Assembly (NCBI GenBank): GCA_002862785.1
Contig: PKDZ01000040.1
Location: forward strand, 61,832-125,831
DNA length: 64,000 bases
DNA from: Flavobacteriales bacterium
GTDB lineage: Bacteria; Bacteroidota; Bacteroidia; Flavobacteriales_D; Sanyastnellaceae
Direction of reading: 5' to 3'
Shown in pieces: positions 19,298 to 31,460 of this stretch. A model generated the notes under the pieces. The model saw only the letters and a program-made list of their open reading frames with translations. It ran no database searches and was not told where the DNA came from. The position numbers were made by a program, and so were the translations under genes. The first letter of the stretch is position 1. Each line of letters opens with the position of its first letter.

Positions 19298-19930
19298 TCA
19301 GGGCTGAAGCCGCTGCTGAATCCACGACCCGCCTTGGCGCGTGCAACGGATTCGGTCATGGAGCCGGCCGGGCCTGCCCTGCCAGAATTCGACCGTCTCG
19401 GCCACCAGGCGATAGCCACCCCAATGGGGTGGCCGAGGAACCTCGCCGGGAAAGCGGTTCTCCACCTCGGCCCGCGCTGACTCGAGGGCGGCCCGGTCCG
19501 CGATGGACTCGCTTTGCTGCGACGCCCAAGCACCGATTCGGCTTGCTCTTGGGCGGCTGTTGAAATACCGGTCCGACTCCTCTGCGGATAGCGGCTCAAC
19601 CGTTCCCCGAATCCGGAGCTGCCGTTCCAGTGCTGGCCAGAAAAAGGTCAGTGCCGCTGAAGGATGGCCGGCGAGCTGTTTCCCTTTGGCGCTCTGGTAG
19701 TTCGTGTAGAACAAGAAACCGCTCCCCTCCCGGTCGACATTGCGGAGCAAGACGATGCGGGCATCTGGATGACCCTCGGTATCCACCGTGGACAGCGTCA
19801 TGGCGTTGTAATCCTCAGGGTCGGCGGTCCGGGCCGCCTCCAACCATTCCTTCAGCCGATCGGCCATGGACTCGCTTCCACCCTGAAGGGCTCCGGTGGA
19901 GTAGTCCTTTCTGTCCTCGTAATCTCCCAT
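19298..19930 (-). CDS. pdxH: Pyridoxamine 5'-phosphate oxidase
   Basis: 'RIVLLRNVDREGSGFLFYTNYQSAKGKQL', 'FFWPALERQLRIRGTVEPL', 'PPHWGGYRLVAETVEFWQGRPGRLHDRIR'. Confidence 0.96.
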   Translation of the reverse strand: MGDYEDRKDYSTGALQGGSESMADRLKEWLEAARTADPEDYNAMTLSTVDTEGHPDARIVLLRNVDREGSGFLFYTNYQSAKGKQLAGHPSAALTFFWPALERQLRIRGTVEPLSAEESDRYFNSRPRASRIGAWASQQSESIADRAALESARAEVENRFPGEVPRPPHWGGYRLVAETVEFWQGRPGRLHDRIRCTRQGGSWIQQRLQP

Positions 19931-19961: not shown

Positions 19962-21353
19962 TCAGTTCAATGGCTTTTCCACCACGAGCAAAAGGTTGCC
20001 GCTCTCCTCCTCTTGGCTCAACTCCATTCCTGAATGCTCCACGTATCCGATGCGGTGAACCTCATTGACGTCAAATCCGCAGGACTCAACGAGGTCCATG
20101 ATGCCATTCTGAGAGCAGTAATGCAGAAAGGCCACGGTGTCGCCGCCATGCCGTTTATAGAAGAGATCTCCTTTCTCGTAGCCCTCATTGGCGAGTTCCA
20201 GTTCCTCGAAGAGTTGAACGGCTTCAGGCCCCCATTCGTTGGGATTCTCAACATTGAAGACATCGAAATAGAACCGGCCTCCAGGACGCAGGGCGCCATG
20301 CACCTTGCGCAGGCTCCGCTCCCGCTCCTCGAGGGAGGGAATGTGACCGAAGGCGTAAAGGAAGGTGATGGCGTCATACGCCCCGGACTCGACGTCTACC
20401 TCGTTCCAGTGGCCGATGCGTGCATCGAGTCCCCTGCCCTTCGCCGTCTCCACCATGCCGGCACTGATGTCAATGCCTTCCATGCGGTAGTCCAAGCCGG
20501 ACCGGTCCCGGATGTCCGTTGCTCGTCTTCCAGTGCCACACGCAATGTGCAGGACGCGTGCCGCCCCGCACTCGGAGAGGTCCTTGGCGATGATGCCGTT
20601 GATGCCCTCCGTATACGCCCGGCGTTTCTCACTGCCCTGATCGAGGTGGTCGTAGGTGTCCGCTTGTTCAGAGTAATAGACGCTGATCGAATGCAGGATT
20701 TCGAAGCTTCCGGGCTTGGGGATGAGCGGATAGAGGCGGTGGGTCCGGTTGCCCTTCATCTCGCTGATCGGGATGAAGGTGAACGCGTCCTTTTCCAACC
20801 TCCGGAAACCGGATTCATCCTGTTGGAAGGAGGCTGTGGTGGCGGTCTCATTCAACTCCCCCATCCATCCCTTTTCGGTATCAAACAGGACCATGCCGTC
20901 CAGCGTGTCCAACGCTGGAGCGTAGAAGTGCACGGTCACCAGCGGCTTGTCCGAACTCGGGTTGACAATCTTGTGGAGGGTGCCGTCAGGCTCGGGCAGT
21001 ACGCCTCCGGCCCGGACCCGCAGAGCGGTTCCCTCGCGAAGCTCTTTCCGCTCTGCGTCAAACGTGTATTCCACGTTTTCGACCTCTCCCTCGATGCAAA
21101 GAACATAGCCCCAGAATCCTTCATGGTGGTGGATGGCGCTCTCCACACCCGGAGGCCAATGCAGCACGACCACCTCGAACGGATCGAGCAACATGATGTT
21201 CCGGGCATAGTTGTCGGTCATGCCCTCGATGGAGGGAATGCACCCCGACAGGTCGAGTTCGGCCGGGTCGATGGAACGAACCAAATCTCCCAGCCACTCA
21301 AAGTCAAAGCCTTCGGGTGTGGTCGTTCGGATGGTCTCAAGGAGGGCGCGCAT
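19962..21353 (-). CDS. Fusion protein: cysteine dioxygenase-like cupin (N) + SAM-dependent methyltransferase (C)
   Basis: N: 'YARNIMLLDPFEVVVLHWPPGVESAIHHHEGFWGYVLCIEG', 'TLHKIVNPSSDKPLVTVHFYAPALDT'; C: 'ARVLHIACGTGRRATDI', 'GIDISAGMVETAKGRG', 'DAITFLYAFGHIP', 'LRPGGRFYFDVFN'. Confidence 0.85.
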   Translation of the reverse strand: MRALLETIRTTTPEGFDFEWLGDLVRSIDPAELDLSGCIPSIEGMTDNYARNIMLLDPFEVVVLHWPPGVESAIHHHEGFWGYVLCIEGEVENVEYTFDAERKELREGTALRVRAGGVLPEPDGTLHKIVNPSSDKPLVTVHFYAPALDTLDGMVLFDTEKGWMGELNETATTASFQQDESGFRRLEKDAFTFIPISEMKGNRTHRLYPLIPKPGSFEILHSISVYYSEQADTYDHLDQGSEKRRAYTEGINGIIAKDLSECGAARVLHIACGTGRRATDIRDRSGLDYRMEGIDISAGMVETAKGRGLDARIGHWNEVDVESGAYDAITFLYAFGHIPSLEERERSLRKVHGALRPGGRFYFDVFNVENPNEWGPEAVQLFEELELANEGYEKGDLFYKRHGGDTVAFLHYCSQNGIMDLVESCGFDVNEVHRIGYVEHSGMELSQEEESGNLLLVVEKPLN

Positions 21354-21484
21354 GTCCGGTTAGGGTTCTGTTCGAAGATAAGTGGCGACAGGGGTCCACG
21401 CCAACGGAACAGGGTGAAGAACACCGGTTTGAAACCTTCCGCGAACCCGAGGAGTATAGGACGGCGATTCCAACTTGTTTGCCC

Positions 21485-21703
21485 ATGTCCAACCGACGCA
21501 TTGTGAGCTATGAAAAGCTTGACCAGTCCATCCGAAAGATGATCAAGTCCAATTACCCCGACGGGTTTGATGGACAGACCTTCAACCTCCGTCTTCCGAC
21601 GAGCAAAGAGGTGTTCAAGATGATTCGCTTCGAAACGGACAACATCCAATACATGGTCAAAGTCGGCCCCGCCATCGAGGGTGTCGACTACTCCGTGGAC
21701 TGA
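21485..21703 (+). CDS. Small conserved-looking hypothetical protein (72 aa)
   Basis: MSNRRIVSYEKLDQSIRKMIKSNYPDGFDGQTFNLRLPTSKEVFKMIRFETDNIQYMVKVGPAIEGVDYSVD; followed by a terminator hairpin. Confidence 0.65.
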   Translation: MSNRRIVSYEKLDQSIRKMIKSNYPDGFDGQTFNLRLPTSKEVFKMIRFETDNIQYMVKVGPAIEGVDYSVD

Positions 21704-23106: not shown

Positions 23107-26100
23107 TCAGTCTCCGATGACGAGGCGGGCGGCTGACCGACGCCCATCCTCTCCCATGGCTCGAACCATATACACGCCGGCAGGATGTCCGGCCAGCGAC
23201 CACGTGGTGCGGGTGCCACTCATGGCGTGCGCCTCCACCTCCCGGCCGAGGGCATCGACAACGAATAGAGTCCCTTGGAAGGGCGATTCGAAGCGGATGT
23301 CGAGGCGGTCCCGTGTGGGATTCGGAGCCAAGCTGAATTCCGGGCGGAGCCATTCCAGGATGCCCACGGGAACGGACACCGTATCGGTCACCTGGCACCC
23401 ATCGTTGTCCGTCACGGTCAGGATCCACTCGCCGGCACCAAGGTCATCGGGATCTTCGAGGCCTGTATTGCCTGTGGGCCCGGTCCAGAAGAAGTCATAG
23501 GGCTCCTCACCTCCGGTGATGGTCACGGACACTTCGCCGTTTTCCTCCCCGGGGTTGGCCCCTTCGATGCTGTCGAACGAAATGGTCATTCCAGGCGGAT
23601 CGACAATGTCAATGCTCACCGTATCCGCACACAGTGAGCCCGATGGGAGAATGGCCGTCACTTCGACGAGGTACTCCCCCGCTCCGAGGCCCAGGAAATT
23701 GCCGTCTGTTGAGACTGGCTCCCCGTCGAGCAGGTATTCCGAGACGGCGACGGTATCGGCCACGAAGGCGCTGATGCTGCCATCCTCTCCTCCCGCGCAG
23801 AAGGGCGCCGAGGCCACGACAAACAGGGCGATGTCCGATGCGGCGAGAATCGAAAAGGGCTGCACCGCGCTGCATGTGGAGTCGCCATCGAGTACCTCGA
23901 GCAAATAGCTGCCCGGCGCCAGTGAATCGAAGGGCAATCCTATCCAAGTGCCAGACAGGGATTCGGCAGGCCCAACGAGCGTGTAGTAAACGGAATCGGT
24001 CAAGGCAGAATCGACCGTGAACTGAGCCGTTCCGTCCATTGCTCCGAAGCAACTTTCGCTGGAAATGGCCACTCCCGAGAGAACCAGGTCGCAATAGGTG
24101 CAGCTTCCATCCTCTACCGTTGCCTGCGGATTGAAGTTGGAGGCCGTCTCGTCCGTGCACCCTACGCAGGACGTGTATTCACAGTTGTCGGCGTCCAGCA
24201 GAGCCGTCACGTCAAAATTGCAAGCCTCCGGATCCAGGCAACCGGCGCAAGAGGAATATTCGCACAGGCCACTTTCAAAGGTGGCGTCCGGGCTGAAGTT
24301 GCACGCTCCAGAATCCGTGCACCCGTAACAGGTGAAATCGCAAAGGGCCAAATCGTTGATGAAGGCCGTGCTGTCGAAGTTGCAAGCCGAACTCAGACCG
24401 CATCCCGCACAGGTGGCGTAGTCGCAAGACTCGTCGTCGAATGTCACAAAGGGGTTGTAATTGCAGGCGAGAGAATCCAGACAGCCCCCCACTTCGACAC
24501 CGTCACAGACCAAGACGAATTCAAAGCCTCCCACCGCCGGGGTGACGGCATTGGAGCCGCTCACATGAAGAAAGTACTCTACGCCCTCGTCGCTGTCCCA
24601 TTCGACTTCGGAAGCGAGGAAATTCTCAAAGCAGGGCTCGGCAAAGAAATTGACCTCGTCCTGGTCATCATTTCCCGCAACGCAGTCCAGGTTGTCACAG
24701 TCACCTTCATAGACACTGAGATACGTATCATATCCAGTGTCCTCGAAGCACATCGTCGCCCGAAGGGTGTCCCCTGTCCCGGTGATGCTGTACCACAGTC
24801 CTCCATGGAAATACTGTCCGATGTTGTATTGGTCACAGTACTGGCTTTCCGTCGTATCCGCGCACACGGTCGTGGCCGTGACGATTTGACTGCACGCGAT
24901 GGGCTCGGCCATGCTGCACTCATCGTTGGCCACGGGGAGACAGAAGCCATTGCAATCAAAGCCGTCCTGTGCGTAGTAGCAGCTGCCGTCCTCCTCAGTG
25001 TAGACCGGCGCCCAATTGCAAGCCTCGGGATCGGTGCATCCCGGAAATTCAAACGGGTCGCAGACCCCGTCCATGTCCTCGTCGCACAGGCAATTCCCCT
25101 CACAGTCGAAGCAGAAAAAGGGATACTCGCAACTCCCGTCATCCTCGGTGGCTTCCGGGTTGAAATTGCATGCGTCTTCGTCCGTGCATCCGGGAGTGAC
25201 CGCCGGTGGCAACAACGAGGTCAAACGCCACAGGGTCACCGTCCCGCTCACTTCATTGGAGGTGACCAGCAGTGCTGTGCTGTCTGGGCTGTCCTCTTGG
25301 GAGATGAAGCGCAATCCCTCCGGGCCGAGATCGCCCGATGTCGCCAACGAGGTGGCCTCAAAATCCCGGTTGATCAAGGTTCGGACGTAGTGCACGGAAT
25401 CGAGATCGGTCATGTCGAACACCATGACCGCACTCACGCGTTCCAAGCCGACAAAGGCATACGTCCTTCCGTTCAACTCTCCGATTTCAATCCCCTCGGG
25501 TTCGGGCCCCTTGTCGTCTGACCGCTCGTCGAAACTCAGCACCTCGTCATTGTCGAAGTTGAAACCGGCCTCGCCCAAAAGTGCCGCTGTCCGCTCCTCA
25601 AACTCGGATCCGCTGTCGTACAGAACCGTCCCGGTGGTATCATAAATCGTGAAGCTTCGGCTTCCGAAACCCACAATCTCATCGTGGTCCCCGTCTCCAT
25701 CTGTATCCCCTTCCGTGGTGATCATCAGCATTCGTCCCAAAGATTCTGGATCCTGCAACCCGGGGTGGGTGTTCAGCAAAACGCTGTCCAATGTGGCATT
25801 GGCCACGCGGGTCTCATCCGTCCAGATGGACCCGTACTCTCGGCTGTCTCCTTCATTGGCCGTCAACAGGATGGTCTGTCCCTCATGGTCCCATGAATGG
25901 ATGGCATCCGGCATGCGCAACCCTTTGACGGGCCAGGGTGCAATGGCGATGGAACCGTCCAGATCACTGGGGTCCAACCCTCCGTCGAGGGCATAATCCC
26001 TGGCGCCGAGGGGCCAAACGCCGGTCACCTCTGCCTCCTCGACATCAATCACGATGATGGCGTTGTTTTCCTGGCATGCGATGTAGGCGGTGCTCCCGTC

Positions 26101-27279
26101 CATGCTGAAGGCCCCGAATTCAGGCTCCAGATCCTGTTCTATGCTGGCACCGGGTGTTGAAATCCGGACTCCCTCCGACAGGTCCTCCGACGTCAGGCCC
26201 GCGAACGACACCTGCGTCACAATCCCCTGATCCGGTCCGGAGGACACGTCGATCAGGGTGGCGCTTCCCGGCTGGTCAATCAATTCTCCCAAGGAGAAAT
26301 CCGCTGCAGGTTGCCCTTCATTGCTCACGAGCAAATGACTGCCGTCAGGCGAAAGGGCAATGGCATCCGGCCAGAACCCGGCTGGATATTCCGCCACGAA
26401 GTCCCCATCGACATCGAAGATGACCACCATGCCCTCATCTTGAATCGTCGGTCCGAGGATGGTCGCCGCCACATGGTCCCCCATCACCACCACACTGGTG
26501 GCTCCACTTCCATAGGCGGCAGCATCCAGATATTCAATGAGTGTAGGCGTTGCAGGGTCAGCAATGTCCAGTACGCCGATTTGCGCGGTGCTGGCTCGAA
26601 TGAAAAACAGCCGCTGGCTTCCCGCATGATGGTCTACGATTTCCGCCGCGCTTACATCGTATTCGCCCGTTTCAAAGGTCCCCAGCACTTCAGCAAACAA
26701 ATCGCTGGTCATGCAGCTGCCATCGTCTTCTTGGGCCAGGGGATTGAAATTCTCCGCGAGCGGATCCATACAGCCCTCGATGGTGCAATCCGGAACCAGG
26801 ACGCCTTCCAAGACGGTTGCACCCAATCCTGCGGGGATGCTCAAATACGGTGTGGACAGCACATCGGCAGAGGTCCATCCATTGGAACCATTCCAGCTCA
26901 AACTCGCCGAATCAAGAGCGAACATCCCCAAATCGAAGGTCATCTCCATTTCCTCGCCATCGGTGTCGATCTCCACGAGAAAGTGAATGGCCGAATCTCC
27001 ATTGGACGGGATGTGGTTGATTTCGAAACGGGCGCCTTCAGAAAGCAGGCAGGCATAGGCCGCGGGCAAATTGGGCGGACACAACAAATCCAACCCGACA
27101 TCTAGTCCCGCTGTGGAGGCTGTATCCATGACCAAGGACAATTCGGATTCCCCGGAACCATGTTCCACGAAAATGGTGACGGTCCATTCAGGGACACACA
27201 AGCCGGGTTGGGCTTGACTTTCACCAACGGACGCTAGACCAAGCGCCAGAATAAAGACGGAGAAGTAGGGAGAACGCAT
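23107..27279 (-). CDS. 1390-aa secreted protein: choice-of-anchor I-type propeller, ~8 GCTDxxACN Cys-rich modules, SprB-like repeats, T9SS sorting tail
   Basis: 'GPEPEGIEIGELNGRTYAFVGLERVSAVMVFD'; repeated 'GCTDEDACNFNPEATEDDGSCEY'; C-terminal 'FSLAPNPTRDRLDIRF...GVYMVRAMGEDG'. Confidence 0.88.
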   Translation of the reverse strand: MRSPYFSVFILALGLASVGESQAQPGLCVPEWTVTIFVEHGSGESELSLVMDTASTAGLDVGLDLLCPPNLPAAYACLLSEGARFEINHIPSNGDSAIHFLVEIDTDGEEMEMTFDLGMFALDSASLSWNGSNGWTSADVLSTPYLSIPAGLGATVLEGVLVPDCTIEGCMDPLAENFNPLAQEDDGSCMTSDLFAEVLGTFETGEYDVSAAEIVDHHAGSQRLFFIRASTAQIGVLDIADPATPTLIEYLDAAAYGSGATSVVVMGDHVAATILGPTIQDEGMVVIFDVDGDFVAEYPAGFWPDAIALSPDGSHLLVSNEGQPAADFSLGELIDQPGSATLIDVSSGPDQGIVTQVSFAGLTSEDLSEGVRISTPGASIEQDLEPEFGAFSMDGSTAYIACQENNAIIVIDVEEAEVTGVWPLGARDYALDGGLDPSDLDGSIAIAPWPVKGLRMPDAIHSWDHEGQTILLTANEGDSREYGSIWTDETRVANATLDSVLLNTHPGLQDPESLGRMLMITTEGDTDGDGDHDEIVGFGSRSFTIYDTTGTVLYDSGSEFEERTAALLGEAGFNFDNDEVLSFDERSDDKGPEPEGIEIGELNGRTYAFVGLERVSAVMVFDMTDLDSVHYVRTLINRDFEATSLATSGDLGPEGLRFISQEDSPDSTALLVTSNEVSGTVTLWRLTSLLPPAVTPGCTDEDACNFNPEATEDDGSCEYPFFCFDCEGNCLCDEDMDGVCDPFEFPGCTDPEACNWAPVYTEEDGSCYYAQDGFDCNGFCLPVANDECSMAEPIACSQIVTATTVCADTTESQYCDQYNIGQYFHGGLWYSITGTGDTLRATMCFEDTGYDTYLSVYEGDCDNLDCVAGNDDQDEVNFFAEPCFENFLASEVEWDSDEGVEYFLHVSGSNAVTPAVGGFEFVLVCDGVEVGGCLDSLACNYNPFVTFDDESCDYATCAGCGLSSACNFDSTAFINDLALCDFTCYGCTDSGACNFSPDATFESGLCEYSSCAGCLDPEACNFDVTALLDADNCEYTSCVGCTDETASNFNPQATVEDGSCTYCDLVLSGVAISSESCFGAMDGTAQFTVDSALTDSVYYTLVGPAESLSGTWIGLPFDSLAPGSYLLEVLDGDSTCSAVQPFSILAASDIALFVVASAPFCAGGEDGSISAFVADTVAVSEYLLDGEPVSTDGNFLGLGAGEYLVEVTAILPSGSLCADTVSIDIVDPPGMTISFDSIEGANPGEENGEVSVTITGGEEPYDFFWTGPTGNTGLEDPDDLGAGEWILTVTDNDGCQVTDTVSVPVGILEWLRPEFSLAPNPTRDRLDIRFESPFQGTLFVVDALGREVEAHAMSGTRTTWSLAGHPAGVYMVRAMGEDGRRSAARLVIGD

Positions 27280-27383: not shown

Positions 27384-30300
27384 TCAGTGGCGAATCATCA
27401 GCTGCTGGACAGCGGAAGCTTGCCCTGCCGTCAGGCGCACCTGATACACTCCGTCCGCGAGGGCGGAGAAGTCCATCTGGACCTGACCAGAGAGCGTCAT
27501 GCCCTCCTGGCGGAAAACCCGACGTCCAGCACCATCAAAGACCTCGATGATGGCTTTCTCAACAAGCTGGTTGAGCTCGAGGATGAGCTGACCATTGGTC
27601 GGGTTCGGCATCAGGGCAATGCCCAGGTCGCCGATCACCTCGGTCAGGCCCACTGTGGTGAGCTCGATCACTTCAGTGGCCTCGCAGTCATTCTCGTCCG
27701 TCACCGTCAGGGTATACGTACCATCAGTAAGGCCAGCGATGTCCTCGGAGTCGTCCTCGAATCCATCGGGTCCTGCCCAGTCGTAGTCGTAGCCACCGGT
27801 GCCGCCTTCAACGGATACGGAAATCTCACCGTTCGGCGCATTGTCCGGATCTGTGGTCTCATCCACCGTGATCACGATTTCAGCTGGTTCCTCTACTTCC
27901 GCGTCGATGTCAGCCTCGCAGCCGTTCTCGTCCGTAGCGAACACGGTGTAGGGACCGGCGTCCAATCCTTCAAAGTTGCCATCCACATTGGAGTCGCCTC
28001 CAAGCTCGTAGGTAATGAGGCCCGTGCCTCCCTCCGACGTGACCACGATGGATCCGTCGTCGTCGCCGAAGCAGGTGGCGTCGTTGGCGAAGGCAAACAG
28101 CATGATGGCGGCGGGCTCATTGACACTCACCTCCAACGTGTCCATGCACATCAGGGAGTCCATTGCAATGATCTTGTAGGAGCCTCCGGGGAGCTGATCG
28201 AAGACGAGGGTGTTTTGGAACACACCGCCTTCGAGCGCGTAGATGACGGAACCAATGCCTCCGCTGGATCCTTCCAACGCGATGCTTCCGCTCATCTCCC
28301 CAGCACAGGTCACGTCCATGATCGTCACGGTCGAATCAATCTCGAGTTCGCAGTAGACGCAGGTCTCGTCATCGATGGTCGCGGTTGGGTCGAAGTTGGC
28401 CGCGTCTGCGTCGGTACAGCCGTAGCAGCTGTAGTCACAGAGGGTCACGTCGTAGTCTGTCGCGCTTGAGTCGTAGTTGCAGGCGTTCTCGTCAAGACAA
28501 CCAGGAATCTCGTCCTCGTTGCAGATGCCGTCTCCATCGGAATCGTTCAAGCAGTTGCCATTACAGTCCACGTTCGGGTTGCCATAGATGTCCACCGGCT
28601 CCTGACAGGAGCCGTCATCGATGGTGGCCGTGTCGTCATAGTTGCAGGCCATCTCGTCGGTACAACCGGCGCAGCTCTCGTAGTCACAGCTGCCATCATC
28701 CTCCGTGGCTTCCGGGTTGTAGTTGCAGGCGTCCTCGTAGATGCAGCCATCCACTTCCGCCTCGTCACAAACACCATCCCCGTCTCCGTCGTTCAAACAG
28801 TTGCCGAGACAATCGTAATAGTCGGCCCCGTAAAGATCTTCAGGGAATGTGCAGGACATCGCGTCATTGATCAACGCCGTGCTGTCATAGTTGCAAGCCA
28901 GTTCGTTGAGACACCCGGCGCAACTCTCGTAGTCGCAGGAACCGTCCTCTGTGTCGGCCGCGGGATTCCAGTTGCAGGCGTTCAAATCGGTGCACCCCTC
29001 GATCGAGGGGATGAGCACCGCGTCGATGACATGGACCACACCGTTCTCGGCAATCAGGTCCGCGATGATGATTTCCGCATCCTCGATGAAAATGGAGCTT
29101 CCGCTGAACGTGATCGTGGCCATCTGACCGTTGATCATCTCGATCATCATGTTGTTGGTCAACATGTCACTGGTGACGGAGTCAGCCGCCACGTGATAGG
29201 TCAACACCGAAGCCAGCGTGGCCGGATCAGCCAACAGAGCGTCCACGACAAAGGAGGGCAGTGCGTCCACGGCCGCATCAGTCGGGGCGAACACCGTCCA
29301 CGCACCATCGTAGGTCAGAGTGCTGTCGAGTTCAGCAAGGACAATCAAGTCCTCCAGGATGGTGTGGGCTTCGCTGCCAGCGATGATGTCGAAGACGCTG
29401 GAGGCCGGGTAGGCACACATGCCGTCGTCATCCGTGGCCACCGGGTCGTAGTTGAGCGCGGTGTCATCCGTGCATCCGGGAATCTCTTCCTCATCACACA
29501 CACCGTCTCCGTCCGCATCGTTCAGGCAATTGCCGTCACAATCCACGTAGTCGTTTCCGTACACATCTTCTGGGTATTGACAATCATCGTCCGGCGCCAC
29601 GCAGGCGTCCCCGATGTTGAAACTGAAGTACATGTCGCCATTGACACCATCTCCATTCTCGAAGATCTGGACGTAGAAATTGCCCTCGATTTCACCACTG
29701 GTTGTGAGCTGGGCGATCAGGACCTGCTGGTCAGGGTGGCTGGCCGCAATGCCGTTGTTGTCTCCATTGAGCGCAAACCAGCTTCCGCCGACTACATCGT
29801 TGATGACAATGTCTCCACCAGGTGCTCCGAAGCCCGGCTCAAAGTTGACGGACCATGGATTGTTTGCCCCTTCCACGGTGGACACGCTGGCTTCACCGAT
29901 GGAAGCATCCGGTGATTCACTCAGGCCGATGGTCACCCAGCTGTCATATTGCAAGTTGGGGAACGTGCCGAACAGGAACGGCGTAATCGCATTGGGCGTC
30001 ACACCGCCCAATTCGTCCTGATAAAAGTCCGTCGTGGTGGTCACCACCGTGGGGTTGTTGATGTCACCAGAAACGGAACTCACGAAGTCAGCCGAGTTGG
30101 CGCACTTCACATAGAAGCGGTACGTCGTCATGCCCGCGAGGTCGGGGTTGGTAGACGGGTGGACTGCCACCGTGTCCACGATCAGGCAGTAATCGGCGTC
30201 CACCACCACAGCCGTGGGGTCGTAGTTGCAGGCCACCGGGTCACCGCATCCCTCCTCCTCGTCGCAGAGGCCGTCACCGTCTTCATCATTGATGCAATTG

Positions 30301-31460
30301 CCGTCGCAGTCTAGGTAATCGGCCAGCGGGTAAGTGCAGTCACCACTGTCAATGGTGGCGTTCATGTCGTAGTTGCAGGCCAACTCCTCCGTGCATCCCA
30401 CGCAACTGAAGTCGCAGGAGCCGTCATCGAGCGTGGCCGACATGTCGTAGTTGCAGGCTCCAGCTTCCGTGCAGCCTGCGCAGCTGGTGAAGTCACACGT
30501 GCCATCGTCAATCGTGGCCGTCTCATCATAGTTGCACGCGGTTTCGTCGGTGCACCCCACACAGCTTGCGTATTCACAAGTGCCGTCATCGTCCGTCGCA
30601 TTGGCGTTGTAGTTGCACGCCGTTTCATCCGTACATCCAATGGATTCGTTCTCATCACAGATTCCATCGCCATCAGCATCGTTGATGCAATCTCCATTGC
30701 AATCAAGGATGGGGTCAGTCGGGTATTCACACGTGCCGTCGTCGACGGTGGCGGCAGCGTCATAGTTGCACGCCATCGGATCCGTACATCCGTTGACACC
30801 CGCACCACCGAAAACATAGGTTTCCCTGAAGTCAATGCTACCATCCCCTTCTGGGAAGACCTGGGTATACAGTTGACCACTGAGGTCTCCCGTCGTAGTG
30901 AATTGACCAGCCAACACTTTCAGATCCGCTCCAGCGACTCCATTGGCATCACCATTCAATGCGTACCAAGCACCACCGATGATGTCATCGATGACGATGC
31001 TCTCACCGGCCAGTCCTCCACCCGGGTCGAAATTGGTAAACCAAGGATTCGCCGTGGCCTGAACAGTCGATATGCTGGCTTCTCCCGCCAGGGCATTAGG
31101 CGTCCCGGTCAGACCGATGGTGACCCAGCTGTCGTAAGCCAAATCCGGGTAAACCGGGAAGAGCAGGCTGTTGATGCCGTTCGGAACCCCTGCTCCAAGC
31201 GCGGCGTTGTAGAAGTCCGTCGTCGTGTTGACGTACGTCGGATTCATTGCGTCACCGGAGACGGAACTGAGGAAATCATCCTCGTTGGTCATGGTCACAA
31301 AGACCTGGTAGCAGCTGTAACCGGTCAAGTCAGTGGCTCCGAGTGCACCGACGAGTACGCCGATGTCTTCGGAAACGGTCTCCACTTCTAGTCCTGTGGA
31401 CTGAGCAGAAACAAGGGATGGCAGGAGGCACAGGGCCAGGAGGAGCTTATGCAGCTTCAT
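27384..31460 (-). CDS. 1358-aa secreted multidomain protein: two copies of an unnamed ~190-aa domain, ~13 GCTDxxACNY modules, fasciclin domain, SprB-like repeats, T9SS sorting tail
   Basis: 'GCTDETACNYDETATIDDGTCDFTSCA' series; FAS1 'VFDIIAGSEAHTILEDLI...YDGAWTVFAPTDAAVDAL...GVVHVIDAVLIPS'; tail 'IALMPNPTNGQLILEL...GVYQVRLTAGQ'. Confidence 0.9.
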   Translation of the reverse strand: MKLHKLLLALCLLPSLVSAQSTGLEVETVSEDIGVLVGALGATDLTGYSCYQVFVTMTNEDDFLSSVSGDAMNPTYVNTTTDFYNAALGAGVPNGINSLLFPVYPDLAYDSWVTIGLTGTPNALAGEASISTVQATANPWFTNFDPGGGLAGESIVIDDIIGGAWYALNGDANGVAGADLKVLAGQFTTTGDLSGQLYTQVFPEGDGSIDFRETYVFGGAGVNGCTDPMACNYDAAATVDDGTCEYPTDPILDCNGDCINDADGDGICDENESIGCTDETACNYNANATDDDGTCEYASCVGCTDETACNYDETATIDDGTCDFTSCAGCTEAGACNYDMSATLDDGSCDFSCVGCTEELACNYDMNATIDSGDCTYPLADYLDCDGNCINDEDGDGLCDEEEGCGDPVACNYDPTAVVVDADYCLIVDTVAVHPSTNPDLAGMTTYRFYVKCANSADFVSSVSGDINNPTVVTTTTDFYQDELGGVTPNAITPFLFGTFPNLQYDSWVTIGLSESPDASIGEASVSTVEGANNPWSVNFEPGFGAPGGDIVINDVVGGSWFALNGDNNGIAASHPDQQVLIAQLTTSGEIEGNFYVQIFENGDGVNGDMYFSFNIGDACVAPDDDCQYPEDVYGNDYVDCDGNCLNDADGDGVCDEEEIPGCTDDTALNYDPVATDDDGMCAYPASSVFDIIAGSEAHTILEDLIVLAELDSTLTYDGAWTVFAPTDAAVDALPSFVVDALLADPATLASVLTYHVAADSVTSDMLTNNMMIEMINGQMATITFSGSSIFIEDAEIIIADLIAENGVVHVIDAVLIPSIEGCTDLNACNWNPAADTEDGSCDYESCAGCLNELACNYDSTALINDAMSCTFPEDLYGADYYDCLGNCLNDGDGDGVCDEAEVDGCIYEDACNYNPEATEDDGSCDYESCAGCTDEMACNYDDTATIDDGSCQEPVDIYGNPNVDCNGNCLNDSDGDGICNEDEIPGCLDENACNYDSSATDYDVTLCDYSCYGCTDADAANFDPTATIDDETCVYCELEIDSTVTIMDVTCAGEMSGSIALEGSSGGIGSVIYALEGGVFQNTLVFDQLPGGSYKIIAMDSLMCMDTLEVSVNEPAAIMLFAFANDATCFGDDDGSIVVTSEGGTGLITYELGGDSNVDGNFEGLDAGPYTVFATDENGCEADIDAEVEEPAEIVITVDETTDPDNAPNGEISVSVEGGTGGYDYDWAGPDGFEDDSEDIAGLTDGTYTLTVTDENDCEATEVIELTTVGLTEVIGDLGIALMPNPTNGQLILELNQLVEKAIIEVFDGAGRRVFRQEGMTLSGQVQMDFSALADGVYQVRLTAGQASAVQQLMIRH
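28350..30795 (-). repeat. Array of degenerate Cys/Asp-rich coding modules (GCTDxxACNY...DDGSCxY; interspersed DCxGxCxNDxDGDGxCDE), interrupted by other domains
   Basis: About 13 copies counted by eye in the translation; the DGDG segments resemble thrombospondin type-3/EF-hand-like Ca loops. Confidence 0.85.

Follow-up and report, generated by a model that had tools for sequence, protein, structure and literature searches.

We propose that the 463-residue protein encoded at positions 19962-21353 of the window (the whole 64,000-nucleotide stretch of Flavobacteriales DNA analysed here) is a bifunctional enzyme, in which a cysteine dioxygenase (CDO) would convert L-cysteine into cysteine sulfinate and a fused SAM-dependent methyltransferase (MT) would then methylate this product, most likely on nitrogen. 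We give this reading a probability of about 40%. The two domains with their intact active sites, the obligate linkage of the MT to the CDO and the repeated loss of the MT are established by comparison of sequences and structures; cysteine as the substrate, the order of the two steps and nitrogen rather than sulfur or oxygen as the acceptor are what we infer. The CDO half of the proposal is well supported and better founded than the choice of the MT substrate. The novelty, as judged from the sequences, lies in the joining of a CDO, itself of a known kind, to an otherwise unknown MT subfamily. The sequence-only reading had left room for an earlier characterisation of such a fusion, and no description of one was found in the open literature, subscription papers lying outside this coverage. 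One paper, PMC2922099, deals with cupins adjoining methionyl-tRNA synthetase paralogues and is unrelated.

A cysteine dioxygenase and a methyltransferase in one chain

The features of the locus, with residues numbered along the fusion protein, are the following.

19962..21353, minus strand: CDO-methyltransferase fusion gene, 463 aa, stop codon at 19962-19964
20754..21353, minus strand: Arg-type CDO domain, residues 1-200 (PF05995, profile alignment with 3eqe and rat CDO, Foldseek match to 4qm9_A)
21201..21203, minus strand: Arg51, equivalent by alignment of the carboxylate-binding Arg60 of CDO
21123..21131, minus strand: H75-H76-H77, of which H75 and H77 are the first two iron ligands, aligned with the HxH of solved CDOs
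20973..20975, minus strand: H127, third iron-ligand histidine, aligned with CDO His140
20922..20936, minus strand: T140-x-H142-x-Y144, counterpart by alignment of the CDO Ser-His-Tyr motif
19965..20738, minus strand: class I SAM-dependent MT domain, residues 206-463 (PF13649, profile matches to solved MTs, fold)
20676..20678, minus strand: Tyr226, aligned with TylM1 Tyr14
20523..20561, minus strand: SAM-binding motif I region, residues 265-277 (ARVLHIACGTGRR), within the PF13649 alignment span and with invariant glycines
20343..20345, minus strand: His337, aligned with TylM1 His123
19298..19930, minus strand: pdxH (pyridoxamine 5'-phosphate oxidase), 31 bp downstream of the fusion gene on the same strand

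The presence of a CDO-type cupin and a complete class I MT in one open reading frame, first described from the sequence alone with exact coordinates and no strand (it is the minus strand, window 21353-19962), is confirmed by Pfam, by profile alignments and by the predicted fold. Both the domain search and the structural model that had been suggested as checks bear it out: Pfam CDO_I (PF05995) matches residues 48-151 (E 5.7e-12, 45.9 bits against a cut-off of 23) and Methyltransf_25 (PF13649) residues 267-359 (E 7e-13, 49.5 bits against 27), and the AlphaFold2 model built from the fusion alignment is confident (pLDDT 95.1, pTM 0.90) and free of low-confidence segments. The join goes beyond chance, because the fusion is present in 33 of 150 related genomes (38-93% identity, one copy being split over two contigs), purifying selection acts on both halves (dN/dS about 0.04-0.17 for pairs with unsaturated synonymous change) and the model is confident; a chance juxtaposition or an assembly join is ruled out by these 33 genomes, which include many independent assemblies. 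The pairwise distances of the two halves correlate with r 0.91, in keeping with a single gene inherited as a unit. An antisense frame of 490 aa (20034-21506, plus strand) is a composition shadow and was rejected as a gene because the relatives conserve the minus-strand frame.

When the CDO half is used as a profile, residues ~17-155 align with the solved CDOs of B. subtilis (3eqe, E 4e-20) and rat (E 3e-13), and Foldseek recovers the cupin fold, with 4qm9_A, the B. subtilis CDO with bound cysteine, at a TM of 0.85 on the target and an rmsd of 2.5. In the profile alignment, H75, H77 and H127 occupy the positions of the iron ligands His86, His88 and His140, so that the three ligand histidines proposed earlier stand, save for the middle residue of 'HHH': H76 varies among relatives (HLH, HYH, HFH) and is no ligand. 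The arginine of 'NYARN' (R51) falls, as had been predicted, at the position of rat Arg60, and the downstream tyrosine of 'VHFYAPALDT' (Y144) at that of Tyr157; Y49 corresponds to Tyr58 and H142 to His155, and W66 and S72 align with the conserved Trp and Ser preceding the iron ligands of solved CDOs. Y49, R51, W66, S72, H75, H77, G82, H127 and Y144 are invariant across 42 aligned fusions, in which H142 is conserved at 90% or more. The roles of Arg60, Tyr58 and Tyr157 in CDO have been described, the Arg60 position being the mark of the Arg-type enzymes, which bind the cysteine carboxylate (PMC8050391; PMC8503633); in the Gln-type enzymes, which act on 3-mercaptopropionate, the arginine is relocated (PMC8050391).

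Two departures from the mammalian site were seen. The glycine noticed at the position of the crosslink cysteine is indeed G82, aligned with Cys93, so that the Cys93-Tyr157 crosslink feature is absent from all 42 fusions; this crosslink is typical of eukaryotic CDOs and does not define the bacterial ones, which use an unmodified tyrosine (PMC8050391). In the Ser-His-Tyr motif, a second-shell element reported to enhance the rate and to be dispensable for activity (PMC8050391), His142 and Tyr144 are retained and Ser153 is replaced by Thr140, as in most members. By every defining feature that sequence and model allow to be tested, the CDO half is a CDO whose accessory motif differs by a Ser-to-Thr change. 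B. subtilis YubC (PDB 3eqe, 4qm9) shares with it the cupin fold, the three-histidine site, the Tyr58/Arg60 and His155/Tyr157 equivalents and the missing crosslink; unlike the fusion, YubC is a stand-alone protein of ~170 aa with the serine of the motif, devoid of the MT and of the conserved tail (residues 150-200) that is proper to the clade of the fusion.

The MT half has an invariant SAM motif (G273, T274, G275, R277) and, on the substrate side, the invariant residues Y226, H337, E373-W374-G375, G395-D396, F398-Y399 and H411-Y412 in the same 42 fusions. Besides the B. subtilis CDO, Foldseek matches the model with numerous class I MTs. Its best solved relative by single sequence is the sugar N,N-dimethyltransferase TylM1 (3pfg, 35 bits), whose Tyr14 and His123, which we take to be active-site residues, are conserved as Y226 and H337; the overall similarity is low and we do not claim membership of a TylM1-like family. 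Glycine-sarcosine N-methyltransferase and NmbA appear among the profile and fold matches, and this resemblance to small-molecule N-methyltransferases favours N-methylation, short of proof; the MT is probably an N-methyltransferase. The best matches reach 30-50 bits, C-, S- and O-methyltransferases also score by profile and by fold, and the NF051855 equivalog model for glycine/sarcosine N-methyltransferases gives 18.4 bits against a cut-off of 350. Towards TylM1/DesVI and the glycine-sarcosine enzyme the similarity amounts to ~35-40 bits with the C-terminal substrate half unaligned and, unlike the window protein, none of these enzymes is fused to an oxygenase. NmbA, which methylates bacillithiol on its cysteine amine (PMC12719100), has the same class I fold (9ri2_B, TM 0.68 on the target, 20% identity); it differs in being a stand-alone enzyme that acts on reduced bacillithiol, and it is not the nearest relative in sequence. 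A PADLOC match to mad2 (35 bits) was discarded, as it spans the generic MT core only.

Dependence of the methyltransferase on the dioxygenase

The carriers of the fusion are mostly uncultured Bacteroidota. A public genome collection holds 55 fusion loci, including MAGs labelled Cytophagales and Chitinophagales, and the nearest named relatives of the window gene come from Flavobacteriales and Crocinitomicaceae MAGs. The fusion is the sole CDO of the window genome and is rare in the class as a whole, where about 395 genomes contain 12 members of the CDO clade, 8 of them fused. When the MT half alone served as query against ~390 genomes of the class, eight matches of 335-375 bits were obtained, all within fusion frames of ~465 aa, and the next best, at 64 bits, was a generic MT. 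In the searches made, this otherwise unknown MT subfamily is seen solely in fusion with a CDO. The idea of an MT that has its function elsewhere and is merely parked on the CDO is disfavoured, as free-standing copies were not found in these ~390 genomes.

The clade also includes members reduced to the CDO: L123 (Maribacter antarcticus), L124, L125, L118/L171, L172, L120/L173 and L174. In the CDO tree, some branches of which are long, so that it is unsure where L171/L173/L174 and L172 attach near the base, L123/L124 and L125 are nested inside well-supported groups of fusions, and a tree uniting all fusions in one clade is rejected (p-AU 5.6e-83). L125 shares one syntenic site and gene neighbourhood with a fusion (L104). 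Because MT-less members sit inside the fusion clade, the trees point to a repeated loss of the MT, which took place at least twice; an MT kept without the CDO was never seen in the genomes searched, and the genomes of five CDO-only members contain no free-standing close copy of it. This pattern is most simply explained by an MT that uses the CDO product.

In three genomes (G402, G477 and G347, with L161, L162 and L160) a member of the clade coexists with an ordinary CDO, and the clade is therefore not simply the housekeeping CDO.

The combination of CDO_I and Methyltransf_25 in one chain was met a second time, in proteins of 528-551 aa with an insert of ~100 aa between the domains.

L175, 9055-10707, plus strand: second fusion family gene
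L176, 3212-4813, plus strand: second fusion family gene
L177, 8473-10056, minus strand: second fusion family gene

Unlike that of the window fusion, their CDO half groups in the tree with other CDOs outside the first clade (L153 in that tree being the gene of L175), MT-less relatives of ~290 aa exist in the same order, and the MTs of the two families are alike only in their generic core. From the different CDO lineage and this restricted MT similarity, it follows that CDO and MT were joined at least twice.

Gene neighbourhood and alternative readings

The gene that directly follows the fusion, pdxH, is its probable operon partner. In 23 of 54 fusion loci it comes immediately after the fusion in the same orientation, with called gaps of -104 to 90 bp and a 4-bp overlap (gap -4) in three of them, which is the strongest sign of an operon; it also follows the MT-less L172 gene, and it is the steadiest neighbour of the fusion, the others changing freely. 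In L167, L169 and L172 the pair belongs to a larger shared gene block (of which pdxH and GT2 are the members annotated with Pfam), so the linkage may partly reflect an old gene order, and given this block we did not accept pdxH as proof of a PLP-dependent decarboxylase route. The neighbouring asparaginase_2, SulP, AraC and GT2 genes are lineage-specific and tell no consistent story. In one genus (L050:10706-11773, plus strand, and relatives) an asparaginase_2 or isoaspartyl-peptidase-type gene stands 9 bp downstream of the fusion, in the place that pdxH has elsewhere. On the minus strand of the window, 23107-27279 and 27384-31460 encode two very large proteins that look secreted; each has numerous cysteine-rich repeats of the pattern GCTDxxACNYDPxATxDDGSC and, at the C-terminus, a tail resembling a sorting signal, and their relatives are found near the fusion in close genomes.

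A further link comes from transport. In Maribacter antarcticus, the gene after the MT-less CDO (L123:6752-8269) encodes a sodium/solute symporter 80% identical to one found in L202 (also in L201), whose gene stands in divergent orientation next to an ordinary pair of CDO and decarboxylase. This shared symporter, seen in one genome, suggests that members of the clade and ordinary CDOs handle the same metabolite, and its substrate may be a CDO-related solute. In L202 (1100-3045, minus strand) and L201, 23 bp separate the ordinary CDO (177 aa) from the group II PLP decarboxylase downstream of it, and the two probably form a hypotaurine operon.

A similar sequel, in which the fusion would feed a PLP decarboxylase and lead to N-methylhypotaurine- or N-methyltaurine-type solutes, finds some support in pdxH, which makes PLP, and in the group II decarboxylase of the window genome (L126). 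Cysteine sulfinate decarboxylase is among the solved relatives of L126 (165 bits), and close homologues of L126 tend to be present in genomes with the fusion (18 genomes with both, odds ratio 10.8, p 2e-7, kinship uncorrected). L126, however, matches diaminobutyrate decarboxylases equally well or better, 16 of 34 fusion genomes have no close homologue and 12 none at E 1e-20, among them the near-closed G028 and G057, in which even a distant homologue was not detected. No group II decarboxylase was found in 1.34 Mb of fusion-clade neighbourhoods with a probe that works on the controls L201 and L202. The co-occurrence, incomplete and uncorrected for kinship, was not taken as proof. The hypotaurine- or taurine-like end product envisaged by the sequence-only reading thus fared poorly: since the decarboxylase is missing from many fusion genomes and from the vicinity of the gene, such a product is possible in some lineages and not general, and as an overall explanation we hold it to be unlikely. 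Just as doubtful is the view that the CDO half acts on another thiol, such as a bacillithiol breakdown product (N-methylcysteine, for instance), 3-mercaptopropionate or homocysteine. In its favour are the BshC gene of the window genome, which makes bacillithiol synthesis likely, the Ser153-to-Thr change and the clade-specific tail; against it, Arg51 occupies the Arg60 position of the Arg-type enzymes, whose arginine is relocated in the Gln-type (PMC8050391), bacillithiol itself has no free cysteine carboxylate, and the closest solved relative was crystallised with cysteine.

The two halves could also be alternative means of disposing of surplus cysteine or some related thiol, the CDO by oxidising it when O2 is present and the MT by methylating the unoxidised thiol on sulfur or on its amine. 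Both would then act on one small thiol, and methylation of a cysteine amine is known for the related fold of NmbA; yet this leaves unexplained that the MT is always accompanied by the CDO, and N-methylation would likely hinder the contact between amine and iron used by CDO (PMC8050391). We consider it improbable too, if a shade less so than the two preceding views. Least probable of all would be an MT serving as a SAM sensor or scaffold, rather than a catalyst, that tunes the CDO to the supply of sulfur amino acids: SAM reports the methionine and cysteine supply, and the pTM of the model implies a predicted fixed arrangement of the domains, but the invariant substrate-side residues exceed what SAM binding should need and dN/dS is low throughout.

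Proposed reaction and its meaning

In the two-step reading that we prefer, a mononuclear Fe(II) held by H75, H77 and H127 would add O2 to the thiol of L-cysteine, with R51 and Y49/Y144 holding the carboxylate, to give L-cysteine sulfinate. The MT would methylate this sulfinate, or something made directly from it, with SAM as the donor and most likely on the amino nitrogen, so that an N-methylated cysteine sulfinate would be formed. We count in favour of this scheme the complete cysteine-binding set, the MT found only in fusion, the symporter link, the likeness to N-methyltransferases and the second fusion. The low scores of the MT matches, within reach of many MT chemistries, count against it, as does the loss of the MT in several lineages, which implies that the methylated product is dispensable; near the fusion gene no enzyme for the downstream processing of an N-methylated sulfinate was recognisable. 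The idea of oxidation followed by methylation, already put forward from the sequence alone, fits an MT that never survives without the CDO; its methyl acceptor is still something we infer.

The logic has a precedent in OvoA, the ovothiol synthase, an iron sulfoxide synthase fused to an MT that carries out iron-dependent sulfur oxidation and SAM-dependent methylation in one chain. OvoA differs from the window protein in having DinB/FGE domains instead of a cupin and in acting on histidine and cysteine; a Pfam scan found no DinB/FGE domain in the fusion, and ovoA_Cterm gives 12.2 bits against a cut-off of 170.

Cysteine sulfinate is a branch point towards taurine, sulfite and pyruvate. That we are dealing with an undescribed enzyme which oxidises cysteine to the sulfinate and N-methylates it in one chain, toward an unfamiliar N-methylated sulfur metabolite, by a pairing that arose at least twice, is a tentative proposition, somewhat more so than the two-step reaction itself. 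Because the MT depends on the CDO and the CDO does not depend on the MT, the MT substrate is directly testable with one expressed protein. If the proposal is true, the coupling of oxidation and methylation would point to an organic sulfur metabolite of uncultured bacteria that has so far escaped notice.
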